Below, piece by piece: positions 25,016 through 29,513 of a DNA stretch of 48,291 bases. A program made the position numbers and the translations under genes. Source of the stretch: Chloroflexota bacterium (GTDB lineage Bacteria > Chloroflexota > Anaerolineae > Promineifilales > Promineifilaceae). Numbering within the stretch: position 1 is the first letter of the stretch; every line of letters starts with the position of its first letter. Where the stretch lies: positions 1-48,291 of the forward strand of contig JAGNBF010000057.1 in assembly GCA_018004935.1 (NCBI GenBank), given 5' to 3'. The notes below the pieces were generated by a model. That model was not told the origin of the DNA. It saw nothing but the letters and a program-made list of their open reading frames with translations, and searched no databases.

Positions 25016-25855
25016 TCAGGCGAACACGACCAGCAGTCCTGCAAGAAAGGCTGGGGCTACCACTGCACAATGGTCGTAGTGAGGGATCGTCTGGTAGGTC
25101 AACTGGAAACCGGCATAGTGTCGGTTCTCCAAAGCCGACAAGAAACGTTCCAGAAACGGCCGTTCATACTCATTCAACTCCGGTTCACCATACGCCAGGT
25201 ACAGGCGGATTGCCAGGCTTTCGTGTTGCGTCGCATATTGCTGTTCGTAGTCGAGGATCGCCCCATTACCGTGCGGCAGATCAGGACTCACGACCACATA
25301 ACGCTGGAACAGATGCGGCCGCTGGAACAGCGCATACAGAGCAAACTCACCACCCCATGAGAACCCCATGAGGGTTCTGTCGGCCGCATCAACCCGATAC
25401 TCAGTTTCGATCCAGGGCAGTAATTCCTGCTGGATAAATTGTAGGAATTGGGGGGCATTGCCCGAAGCCACGGGATCAGAAACGGGAAAAACATCCTGGA
25501 TAAAACCTTCCGCCCCCTGGTCTCTCACCAGCAGGAAATCCCGCATCCGCAGGTGCATCACTTGCGCGTAGGCTTCCGCCAGGGAACCAGTGACCGGATA
25601 CCCAATACCGACGATGACCGCATCGGGAAATGGACGACAAAAAGGAACACGAATATTCAATGTCCGCACCATTTCGACCACCATCCCAAAGTACATGTTG
25701 GCGTCCAGTACATAAATTACCGGATAGGTTTTGTCTGGGTTTTCGGCATAATGGAACGGCAGGGCGATGGAGATCTGATATTCCTGATTGACTGCTGTGG
25801 AATGAAACGTTCTCACTTCGGTTCCGGGAATGGTTGCAAGGGGAAAGTTGTTCAC
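25016..25855 (-). CDS. IroE/esterase-D-like alpha/beta hydrolase (paralogue 1)
   Basis: 279 residues from a GTG at 25855, which has AGGAG 7 nt upstream; the open frame extends to 25888 but lacks a site there. Features: QEYQISIALPFHYAENPDKT and YPVIYVLDANMYFG (esterase core strands), PDAVIVGIGYP, GFSWGGEFALYALF with the nucleophile Ser in GFSWGG, and PHYDHCAVV as the likely catalytic His. This is the esterase superfamily of siderophore esterases and S-formylglutathione hydrolase-like proteins. It is about 35-40% similar by eye to the product of 26317-27195, with a DCC-family gene between them. No signal peptide. Substrate unknown. Confidence 0.86.
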   Translation of the reverse strand: MNNFPLATIPGTEVRTFHSTAVNQEYQISIALPFHYAENPDKTYPVIYVLDANMYFGMVVEMVRTLNIRVPFCRPFPDAVIVGIGYPVTGSLAEAYAQVMHLRMRDFLLVRDQGAEGFIQDVFPVSDPVASGNAPQFLQFIQQELLPWIETEYRVDAADRTLMGFSWGGEFALYALFQRPHLFQRYVVVSPDLPHGNGAILDYEQQYATQHESLAIRLYLAYGEPELNEYERPFLERFLSALENRHYAGFQLTYQTIPHYDHCAVVAPAFLAGLLVVFA

Positions 25856-25924
25856 GGAGTCACTCCTTTTGGGAAAAGACCAAATCATGGTTCGAGATAG
25901 TTTTGAATCAGAATTCTGAAGTAC

Positions 25925-26320
25925 TCAAGGGTATCGGCGAAGGGGTGTGATATCGGGGACGATGCGGCTTAACCGTCCCCGGTAGTGGGCGATAAGTTTA
26001 TCGAACGCATCAACCACCCGCGATAACCGAAGCGATTGGAGTAGGCGGCCAATCACTCGCAATCCGGGTAACTCGGCCAACAGCACCACGCCGCCGCCCG
26101 TATCGCCCGCAATGGGCGTTCCATCACGCAGGATGATCCACCACGATAGTTCGCGTTTGTCTTCTGGCACCGACGCGAGGAGCGTTGCCGCTTCCGGGTC
26201 TGCGAGCGGGAGCAGGGCCACCGCCTGTTGCGGGTCAAGTGTAGCGACGACACGCGCCGCCCAACGGCAAAAACGTCAGTTATCGGCATAGAGAAGCACG
26301 GGGCGGGGAAGTTCCATCAT
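25925..26320 (-). CDS. DCC-family thiol oxidoreductase with TGA at the first redox Cys (candidate selenoprotein or nonsense allele)
   Basis: The frame begins at ATG 26320, which overlaps the stop of the upstream esterase (ATGA), with AGGAGG just before it. It reads MMELPRPVLLYADN, TGA, RFCRWAARVVATLDPQQ and continues without further stops for 131 residues: ALLPLADPEAATLLASVPED, WWIILRDGTPIAGDTGGG and a final FDKLIAHYRGRLSRI. This is a full-length DUF393/DCC protein, whose active site is D..C..C; the TGA (26276-26278, codon 15) falls exactly on the first Cys, followed by RFC. The remaining sequence shows no decay. Either TGA encodes selenocysteine (UxxC) or a Cys codon mutated to a stop. Without recoding, translation could restart at GTG/ATG downstream only without the redox motif. 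Confidence 0.7.
26246..26261 (-). promoter_or_regulatory. Hairpin downstream of the TGA, candidate bacterial SECIS
   Basis: In the mRNA, GGCGGC (15-20 nt after TGA) pairs with GUCGUC (25-30 nt) in six pairs including two G-U, with the 4-nt loop GCGU beginning at +21. Spacing and a G in the loop's first position fit the loose bacterial SECIS rules. The stem is GC-rich and could arise by chance; an alternative UGCCG/CGGCG hairpin at +7 overlaps it. Confidence 0.3.
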
Positions 26321-27195
26321 TCCTCCTCATCTCTCTTTTCAAGCACCCATTTCAAACCAGCCTGAAAACCGGGCGCAAGGACTTCGCAGTGATTTTCGTT
26401 GGCGAAAATCTGTTTGGCTAACGTCAGCCCCTTGTATTTGCGGCTTTCAAGGACGGCCCCAAACCGGACCGTGTCAGATACAGAAACGTTGTTGGTGTTG
26501 TCGGCAGGTTCCTCGAGTTCACCTATCCAAAGATGAACCCTTGCGGCCAGTTCCTTGTGTTCCTGAGCGAACTGGGCTTCCTGTTTGAATACGAACTTTT
26601 CGCCATACCCCAGGGCCGGACTGCCAATGATGTAGCTTTCGAACAAGCCCGGCTCGGCAAACAGGGCGAATGTTGCGAACAGGCCGCCGAGCGAATGCCC
26701 GACCAGAACGCGCCGATTTGGGTCGGCGCTGAACTCGCCTTCAAGAGTCGGAATCAGTTCTTGCTTGATAAATTGCAGAAACTGCGGCGCGCCGCCTGTC
26801 ACGACGCGGCGCTGGAGCCATTCACCGGTTTCCTTCTCTTCACTCTCGACGCGCACCGGGGTAAAGTCGGACTCTCGCCAGGCTATCGAATCCTGCCATG
26901 CTTTTTGTGGAACGCTTTGTTCCTTGTAACCGATGCCAACAATGATGGCGTCAGTCGGTTTGCCGCACCAGGCCATCACACGCACCATGTCGGTGACGAG
27001 ACCAAAGTAATAATTGGCGTCGGTCAAATAAACCACCGGCCATTTCTTCAACGGCTTGTCAAAAGGCCAGGACGCGCCCGGCAATTCATAATACGCATAC
27101 GGAAGCGCGATGGAGATGCGGTATTGCCGTTTGGTGAATTTCGATTTCATCAAGCGGGTTTGGCTGGCAAGGATGGTTGCGGGTTTGTAAGGCAT
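26317..27195 (-). CDS. IroE/esterase-D-like alpha/beta hydrolase (paralogue 2)
   Basis: 292 residues from ATG 27195 with AGGAG 7 nt upstream. Features: KRQYRISIALPYAYYE, KWPVVYLTDANYYFGLVTDM, TDAIIVGIGY, RVLVGHSLGGLFATFALF with the nucleophile Ser in GHSLGG, and FANENHCEVLAPGF with the probable catalytic His. Same superfamily as the 25016-25855 product. Its stop overlaps the ATG of the DCC gene, so the two are translationally coupled; 28 nt separate it from the upstream hydrolase gene. Together the four genes look like one operon. Confidence 0.86.
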   Translation of the reverse strand: MPYKPATILASQTRLMKSKFTKRQYRISIALPYAYYELPGASWPFDKPLKKWPVVYLTDANYYFGLVTDMVRVMAWCGKPTDAIIVGIGYKEQSVPQKAWQDSIAWRESDFTPVRVESEEKETGEWLQRRVVTGGAPQFLQFIKQELIPTLEGEFSADPNRRVLVGHSLGGLFATFALFAEPGLFESYIIGSPALGYGEKFVFKQEAQFAQEHKELAARVHLWIGELEEPADNTNNVSVSDTVRFGAVLESRKYKGLTLAKQIFANENHCEVLAPGFQAGLKWVLEKRDEEE

Positions 27196-27223
27196 AGGTA
27201 ACTCCTCTGTTCGACGTTCTGAA

Positions 27224-27931
27224 TCAAACAAGGTCAAGCAAGACACTTGTCAACGCCTCTGGCGCGGTGATCATCGCATCATGCCCGGTGGGGATGAAAC
27301 GGTAATTCCAGCCCAACTCTGCATATTTCTTTTCTTCCACAGCCGCTTCTTCTGCTGAAAGCGATTTTTCCGTGCAGGAAATGAACGTGCGTGGCAGGGA
27401 ATGGGCATCAGGGTTAGTCAGGGTAAGGGGGGTGGTCAACGTCTTAATCGGATGGGGGGTTAATTTCGCTTGTAACCAGGCCAGGTCTGCGCCGGAGACA
27501 CCGAAGGTCCAATCGGCGATGGGCTGAATTCGCCACGCGTCGTCAGGGCGAATCGCATTTTCCAGGAAAAAATTCCAGTAGTCGCCAATCAGGTCTTTTA
27601 ACGCTTTCCCATCTTCTGGGAGGGGGCCATCCAGGTTGACAAGATGGGCAAGCCGTTCGGGGATTTTTTCGGCAATGGCGGGGACGAGCGAGCCGCCAAA
27701 ACTATGCCCAACCAGGATCACATCGTGCAGGTCTTCAAACCGCACCAGATTGACAACATCTTGAATGTGGACACCCACATCCATCTCAGGGTTGGCTAAA
27801 TGGACGCGCTCGCCGAGCCCGGTCAGGGTGGCGGTGGAAACTTCGTGGCCTGCCTTGCGTAGTAAGGGGGTCACTTTCTGCCAGCACCAGCCGCCGTGGA
27901 ACATGCCGTGAATGAGAACAAAGGTTGCCAT
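27224..27931 (-). CDS. Alpha/beta hydrolase of the methylesterase/hydroxynitrile lyase-like group
   Basis: 235 residues from the ATG at 27931 (an ATG 9 nt earlier overlaps the AGAGG site). Fold motifs: FVLIHGMFHGGWCWQKVTPL (oxyanion-hole HG and strand 3), ILVGHSFGGSLVPAIAEKIP with nucleophile Ser in GHSFGG, and RFIPTGHDAMITAPEAL with the catalytic His. The overall length and the LTGLGERVHLANP segment match the small plant-MES/HNL-like bacterial hydrolases. It is first in the hydrolase-DCC operon. Substrate unknown; probably small esters. Confidence 0.88.
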   Translation of the reverse strand: MATFVLIHGMFHGGWCWQKVTPLLRKAGHEVSTATLTGLGERVHLANPEMDVGVHIQDVVNLVRFEDLHDVILVGHSFGGSLVPAIAEKIPERLAHLVNLDGPLPEDGKALKDLIGDYWNFFLENAIRPDDAWRIQPIADWTFGVSGADLAWLQAKLTPHPIKTLTTPLTLTNPDAHSLPRTFISCTEKSLSAEEAAVEEKKYAELGWNYRFIPTGHDAMITAPEALTSVLLDLV

Positions 27932-27960
27932 CAAATTCATCCTCTAAAAATCTGCCAACT

Positions 27961-28236
27961 TCACTTCCACGCCGGAGCGAGAATAGCTTCAATCGGGTAT
28001 ACGAGTCCATCTGCGCCAGCATAGGAACGGAGAGCCTCGTCCAGGTCGGCCAGGTCCACAATCCCGCCACTGCCTCATAGGACGGCGTGAGAAAGATAGG
28101 TGTCCGGGGCACAACAGGCATAGCCTACTGCCTGCCCGGCGTTATTGATCTCGAAGGCGTAGCTGGACGGGCCGCCCAGTGTGCCCAGGTCTTGCATGAC
28201 GTTGTTTTGCCACAGGAAGGCATGGTTATTCCCGCC
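27961..28236 (-). pseudogene. HAF-repeat fragment with an in-frame TGA
   Basis: One frame reads GNNHAFLWQNNVMQDLGTLG, then GPSSYAFEINNAGQAVGYAC, LSHAVL, TGA (28075-28077), GSGGIVDLADLDEAL, ending at 27963. This is the extracellular HAF-repeat pattern (HAFLW..G.M.DLGTLGG..S.A..IN..GQ.VG). The TGA sits where the second HA.LW has its Trp. No start or signal peptide is present; upstream it fuses directly to the truncated sensor gene. Confidence 0.6.
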
Positions 28237-29513
28237 GCCGAGAGGCGAGCCGCCTGGCTGATTTCAATCAACGGGTGGCTAATGTTGCCGGACATCAGAA
28301 TTGCTCCCAGCAAACTGACACTCCCGGCCAGGACGAAGACGATGCCAAACCAATGGGCGAGGATCACAGGGAGACGCTCGAACGCCTGCCCGGTTTTGAT
28401 CAGGCGGGCTAATACTTGTAACGCCTGGCTCTCCGGCTGAGCCACGATCACCCCCCACTCGAACCCCGCGAAACCAGAGAGTTGAGCCGGGGCATCGTAA
28501 AAGGCACTGTTGCTCGTGCAAGCGTACCCGACCATCTCCCGTCCGTTGGCATAGTCAACCAGCATGAAACCGGCACCTTCGACCCCTGGCCTGGTTGCCA
28601 CTGCTTTGAGGGCTGGTGCGTAATGTTGCGCCACAACATTCTCGGCGGGGTTCAGGATGATCGCCGGGCTGTGGTTCGAAGCGGTGTCGGCAATCAGCCA
28701 CCCATCCAACGAAAACACACGGAGGCTGGCCCCCACGCTGATCGCTTTCTGAGAGAGACGGTGTTGAAGGTCCGTCAGCCGGATCAATGCCCGGATCACT
28801 CCCAATACCTCTTTGGTATCGGGATCAATGATAGGGAGGGCGATCCCGATGACAGGGGCTTCAATACTCGCATCAAGAAATACCTCGGTCACGCCGATCC
28901 CGGCGACGCCTTGAGTGCGGGCAGTTTGCCACCAACTTGCCCCGGCATGGGCTACTTCCGTGACGGACCGGGTGATCAGGACATTGATCCCGTTGGCATC
29001 GGTCACGAGAATCTCGACGAAGGGTGTCTCAGGCCGTTCGGTCTGCCGGAACAGGAATGACAGGGCGGACGAGAAATTCGGCTGGGGGATGGGCACGAAG
29101 AGAGTGCCTTGCAACTGCGCCTTCACCTCTGCGGACGAGAGGTCTGCCAGCCCCGTTTGTTCGACGGCCAGCGTCCCCTGCCGTGCGGCCTCGATGATGA
29201 CACTCTCTTCGCTCCAGCGCCGGACATCGGTAATCCGCTCCAACATATAACTGTCAATGACCAGTGCGGTATCCCCCGCGGCTCCGGCCAGAGTGTGCCC
29301 AACCACGTCCGTGCGTAAAGCCTCCTCCGTTTCCGCCAACCGGGCGGAAAAATTGCCGAGATTGGCCAATGTGGCGGAGAGGATGATGATGTTGACGACG
29401 AGGAGTGGCCCTAGACTGATCAAGAGCATCAGTGCGCCAATCTTGTAGCGGAGGCTGGAGCGAAATCTAGACATCGTTTGAGGGATGACAAACTGTTCGT
29501 GTGCCATCAACAT
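28125..29513 (-). pseudogene. Cache-domain sensor truncated after HAMP
   Basis: The frame gives 462 residues. A membrane helix (YKIGALMLLISLGPLLVVNI) is followed by a large extracellular double-Cache sensor region (residues about 60-345, e.g. VFSLDGWLIADTASN, FAGFEWGVIVAQPES). A second helix (GIVFVLAGSVSLLGAIL) leads into a HAMP start, ISHPLIEISQAARLSAAG. At about 28237 the homology breaks and the last 38 residues are an out-of-frame reading of HAF-repeat DNA. The kinase or methyl-acceptor output is lost. The ATG overlaps the stop of the lipoprotein gene (TAATG), so it was coupled to it. The remaining protein could still be made but would lack signalling output. Confidence 0.75.

Follow-up and report, generated by a model that had tools for sequence, protein, structure and literature searches.

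A DCC1-like oxidoreductase gene of Chloroflexota with a probable selenocysteine codon, in a family that appears to use selenocysteine in many lineages

DCC1-like thiol-disulfide oxidoreductases make up the Pfam family PF04134, formerly known as DUF393, and include YuxK of Bacillus subtilis. That selenocysteine (Sec) can take the place of cysteine in CxxC motifs is, for its part, well known. The two subjects have so far stood apart in the sources that we consulted. Neither DCC nor PF04134 nor COG3011 occurs in the main text and family table of a 2026 review covering over 110 families of prokaryotic selenoproteins (PMC13188914), the term “DCC” is absent from PMC12013277, PMC9312934, PMC2398784 and PMC5330540, and the open-access literature yielded no paper that joins the DUF393/DCC family with selenoproteins or selenocysteine. 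Priority is nonetheless not proven by this search of open-access papers.

Here, we consider a gene within a 48,291-nucleotide stretch of DNA from a Chloroflexota bacterium (the window; contig JAGNBF010000057.1). Its product is probably a small DCC1-like thiol-disulfide oxidoreductase in which Sec replaces the first catalytic cysteine. We set this gene beside its Cys-type and TGA-bearing relatives, and we weigh selenocysteine decoding against the other explanations for the TGA.

The DCC frame, its TGA codon and its neighbours

The gene lies on the minus strand (25925..26320) and consists of 131 codons (26320..25928) and a TGA stop at 25925-25927; its translation reads MMELPRPVLLYADN-TGA-RFCRW...LRRYP-stop. 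The internal TGA is codon 15 (26276..26278, minus) and is followed by CGT TTT TGC, giving a predicted product ...LLYADN-U-RFC-RW... in which the TGC of codon 18 (26267..26269, minus) supplies the second, resolving cysteine. Sequence and alignment agree with the initial annotation that this TGA falls exactly on the first cysteine of the CxxC motif. They also agree that the frame has no further stop: it is the sole coding-like frame of the six (+12 bits for its codon usage versus -5 to -29 bits for the five others, all of which contain stops). The overlap of the start with the stop of the upstream gene, as ATGA, is likewise real and suggests translational coupling. The ribosome-binding site that had been described as strong is a Shine-Dalgarno sequence, GAGGAGGA (26321..26328, minus), whose strength is confirmed but which stands only 1 nt from the first ATG (26320-26318) and 4 nt from the second (26317-26315).

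With the TGA read as cysteine, the protein matches PF04134 over residues 9-119 at 35.3 bits versus a cut-off of 27.8; the match returned by the genome search, which starts after the TGA, scores 25.8 bits and falls under the same cut-off of 27.8. NCBIfam holds no model for the window protein, nor for one UxxU protein that was tested. The alignment does not bear out the canonical D..C..C active site that had been proposed. At columns 12 and 13, where the family has a near-invariant Asp and Gly, the window protein has Ala and Asp, giving Y-A-D-N-U in place of Y-D-G-x-C; the Asp expected at -3 in a DxxCxxC motif is Ala, and the nearest Asp stands at -2. Column 15 is Cys or TGA in 34 of 34 homologues. 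A confident AlphaFold2 model built from these 34 homologues (mean pLDDT 83, pTM 0.79) has a strand at residues 8-11 and a helix at 16-28, and residues 15-18 are predicted to lie between the two, at the start of helix 1, as in thioredoxin-like enzymes. Foldseek against the PDB gave weak matches (E > 0.01 for thioredoxin-like chains) that belong largely to the thioredoxin superfamily.

Two esterase genes identified by profile match (PF00756) flank the DCC gene on the same minus strand, the upstream one (26317..27246) being that whose stop forms the ATGA overlap and the downstream one (25016..25888) being intact. A third alpha/beta hydrolase gene lies near both, at 27224-27940, and the three together possibly reflect a local duplication; that the DCC protein and the esterases are functionally linked is speculative. 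Farther upstream, a remnant of a HAF-repeat protein (TIGR02913; 28000-28250, minus; 47 bits on the piece before a TGA at 28075) sits behind a truncated Cache/MCP-like frame (28125-29513). This remnant, a genuine fragment of a gene, accounts for the lesions that had been noted near the DCC gene: the TGA at 28075 is there, but the four genes between 25016 and 27940 are otherwise intact. The TGA at 28075 was ruled out as a further Sec codon, being in the HAF-repeat remnant and not at a catalytic cysteine.

Selenocysteine machinery and TGA-bearing DCC genes

The draft genome to which the window contig (C10) belongs comprises 7.98 Mb in 229 contigs and is 96.6% complete. The initial annotation had made its reading depend on the genes for Sec synthesis and insertion, and all four are present: a tRNA-Sec with anticodon UCA (63.2 bits versus a gathering score of 47), a full-length selB (363.6 bits), selA (568 bits) and selD (375.9 bits), the three protein genes scoring above their curated cut-offs. 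Because selD itself carries a TGA in frame at the catalytic position (...LASCAG-TGA-AAK...), the genome contains a second Sec codon, and one of a well-established type. The tetranucleotide make-up of the window agrees with that of the selB and selC contigs (r of 0.92 and 0.91, respectively), and this speaks against a mis-binned window contig.

How common is such a codon in the family? A PF04134 search over 400 Chloroflexota genomes yielded about 155 listed DCC matches, among which 23 loci have an in-frame TGA and 1 has another internal stop. In 22 of these 23, or about one-seventh of the matches listed, TGA falls precisely on one or both of the CxxC cysteines (5 UxxC, 13 UxxU and 4 CxxU); the remaining locus ends in a natural stop. 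In-frame TGA codons close to the C-terminus in loci L054, L060 and L061 (...WW-TGA) were rejected as Sec codons and taken as natural stops. A degenerate DNA pattern demanding TGA at the first CxxC position matched 73 times in 84,980 species genomes; 47 of the matches read on as DCC proteins, one of them ending at the edge of its contig record, and 26 were chance. The genuine matches are mostly from Chloroflexota, among them Anaerolineae and MAGs under the name Dormibacterota, and the others come from Actinomycetota (Rubrobacter and Ilumatobacteraceae), Methylomirabilota, Acidobacteriota (Pyrinomonadaceae), a MAG labelled Nitrospirae and a MAG labelled Brocadia. Five read-through products that were scanned scored 50-56 bits to PF04134. 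In viral contigs, the pattern gave five matches, all chance, and the window protein gave none; a plasmid tblastn was equally without a match.

After deduplication, these surveys leave 54 distinct DCC genes besides the window gene with TGA at CxxC positions (36 UxxU, 14 UxxC and 4 CxxU), so the in-frame TGA homologues that the initial annotation had proposed to look for do exist; in 50 of them (UxxC and UxxU), the TGA occupies the same column as in the window gene. The four label types require 13 changes on the DCC tree. In our judgement of the sequence evidence, the DCC family almost certainly uses selenocysteine in many bacterial lineages, whether as UxxC, UxxU or CxxU. The presence of selB does not discriminate in this respect, as it scores above the cut-off in 20 of 22 genomes with Sec-type DCC genes versus 21 of the 26 genomes used for comparison. 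Two genomes with UxxU DCC genes, G095 and G329 (loci L074 and L076), have no selB above the cut-off; they are 95% and 77% complete, respectively, and the selB of G095 may lie in an assembly gap. Another UxxU gene (L125, NZ_CP045121.1), itself intact, is found in the complete genome of the isolate Rubrobacter marinus SCSIO 52915, which makes this the most practical organism for experiment.

The family also has recurrent hairpins that are candidates for bacterial Sec insertion elements (bSECIS). Of 40 UxxU and CxxU genes, 37 have a stem of 5 bp or more whose loop, typically GGU, GGUC or GUCCG, coincides with the W-V motif codons or adjoins them; for 32 of 36 UxxU genes, the best loop begins 16-18 nt past the second TGA. 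The arms vary yet remain complementary (GCGCUG/CAGCGC, CCGGUG/CACCGG, GUCUG/CAGAC, GCCUG/CAGGC and CGCGU/GCGCG). Four CxxU genes (L057, L060, L061 and L064, from G331, G317, G348 and G215) share one and the same perfect hairpin, GCGCUG-GGUC-CAGCGC, at 17 nt beyond the TGA, which provides a good reference bSECIS for the DCC family. Mean z values relative to synonymous re-coding, computed without the minus-strand survey loci that the alignment and tree do include, are -1.0 for UxxU, -0.95 for UxxC and -0.29 for CxxU (n = 4) versus +0.47 for Cys homologues (n = 19). Given these values, the energy signal of the family is modest, and the main support comes from the fixed place of the hairpin and its varied but complementary arms.

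For the window gene itself, the hairpin that had been described after the TGA exists, as a stem with loop CGUGU 21 nt after the TGA (26243..26261, minus; -8.6 kcal/mol, z of -0.34) or, in an alternative register, with loop GCGU (26246-26261). It does not exceed chance expectation: 35 of 100 synonymous re-codings are equally stable, and minimum-free-energy folding of the stretch after the TGA gave nothing unusual. The hairpin fits a loose bSECIS description and, because so many re-codings do as well, neither supports nor refutes Sec.

Selenocysteine decoding and its alternatives

The evidence outlined above supports the proposal of a selenocysteine DCC protein, since the Sec machinery is present and the family contains Sec forms, and we consider it probable that the UGA at codon 15 of the window gene is decoded as selenocysteine. 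In favour of this reading, the TGA sits exactly on the first cysteine of CxxC in an otherwise open PF04134 frame, the complete selA/selB/tRNA-Sec/selD set occurs in the same genome, and 22 other Chloroflexota DCC genes have TGA at CxxC with almost no TAA or TAG. The 47 genuine matches of the TGA scan, the hairpin of the UxxU and CxxU genes with its varied complementary arms, the low chance of a nonsense mutation at this codon and the structural model also speak for it. For the window gene Sec is probable; near-certainty applies to the family alone, because the nearest relatives of this gene are Cys-only and distant and its hairpin is not significant.

Where, then, does the gene belong among its relatives? 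The nearest sequences are Cys-type DCCs of a Chloroflexota family (f23), with identities of up to about 37%. Members of this family (L011, L012, L017, L018 and others) are also its neighbours on the tree, with support of 96/70, and they differ from it at the catalytic codon, with an internal TGA in 0 of 19 matches. The branch of the window gene is long (1.23 changes per column), and, given such a branch beside Cys-type DCCs, its place is unsure. The other 55 genomes of its order have no match, the best full-length relatives in its class (28-33% identity) are without TGA, and no Sec-bearing orthologue was found among the matches compared from the order, the class and family f23, a comparison in which a single genome represents its genus. 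TGA at codon 15 is present in more distant members of the DCC family. We posit that the Sec of the window gene probably arose independently from a Cys ancestor.

Could the TGA instead be a lesion? The main rival explanation is that a mutation turned TGC or TGT, a Cys codon, into TGA and left a young pseudogene whose reading stops after codon 14. This would agree with what counts against Sec: the closest relatives and tree neighbours are Cys-only, at no more than 37% identity and with no Sec orthologue among them; the motif has lost its conserved Asp and Gly; the gene's own hairpin is not significant; and 1.7 kb upstream stands a gene remnant that contains a TGA of its own. However, the remaining 116 codons are open and show coding-like usage, the sole lesion coincides with the single codon that the family uses for Sec, and the genome decodes Sec. 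Stop-bearing non-Sec DCC genes are, in addition, very rare among the matches listed from the 400 Chloroflexota genomes. Only 2 of 41 one-step paths by which a nonsense mutation could arise would place TGA on a CxxC cysteine (about 5%, or 3% with transitions weighted). Because a nonsense hit of this kind has a chance of about 3-5%, while non-Sec stops are very rare and Sec forms account for about one-seventh of the matches, Sec decoding is the likelier, even after a heavy discount for the Cys-only neighbours, the absent Asp and the HAF-repeat remnant, and we regard a pseudogene as unlikely.

A sequencing or assembly error that turned TGC or TGT into TGA, with the real gene encoding an ordinary CxxC DCC protein, is conceivable in a draft genome of 229 contigs, but a substitution exactly at the catalytic Cys codon is improbable and the four neighbouring genes contain no frameshift; we give this explanation very little credence. 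Least plausible of all is a start downstream at GTG 26221, from which the frame is open and would encode a 98-residue protein without the active site, since this codon has no visible ribosome-binding site, similarity to DCC proteins starts well before it, and the strong Shine-Dalgarno sequence occupies 26328-26321.

If the UGA is decoded as Sec, what might the protein do? We infer the actual decoding of the UGA, the catalytic steps and the substrate as follows. UGA codon 15 would be decoded by SelB with Sec-tRNA, through the SelA/SelB/tRNA-Sec/SelD system, to give a U-R-F-C active site. Sec15, where helix 1 begins, would open the reaction: its selenolate would be the nucleophile that attacks a disulfide or another oxidised substrate, after which Cys18 would resolve the selenenylsulfide so formed.

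Significance and comparison with known systems

We think it likely that the DCC1-like proteins are a previously unlisted selenoprotein family that spans several phyla, with many diselenide-capable UxxU members and with Cys and Sec swapped several times, and that the window gene represents a separate Cys-to-Sec replacement in a lineage that is otherwise, as known, Cys-type. Such a finding would enlarge the selenoproteome by a widespread redox family, and a catalytic Sec would support a true redox role for DCC proteins. Sec-type DCC genes are likely misannotated as truncated or missing because the UGA is read as a stop. The UxxU forms would be natural diselenide-capable active sites, and the mixture of CxxC, UxxC, CxxU and UxxU forms would let the timing and the causes of exchange between Cys and Sec be tested directly.

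With the known DCC1-like thiol-disulfide oxidoreductases of PF04134, the window protein has in common the whole-length domain match, with the TGA read as Cys, the position of the CxxC motif and, as predicted by the model, a thioredoxin-like arrangement; unlike them, it has TGA for its first cysteine and Ala and Asp for the preceding Asp and Gly. The GGU-type loop of the UxxU and CxxU hairpins, at the distance noted above, is in line with that of the E. coli fdhF bSECIS, and the clear GGU-loop hairpin of these genes is missing from the window gene. With the redox selenoproteins of the Sec-in-CxxC type in the 2026 review (PMC13188914), the DCC proteins share the motif theme, whereas the protein families are different and PF04134 is not named there. 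The Sec-type DCC genes of Chloroflexota, Rubrobacter, Ilumatobacteraceae, Methylomirabilota and Pyrinomonadaceae form clades apart from the window gene and, unlike it, keep the DG and W motifs; they and the window gene have in common a TGA on the catalytic codon.
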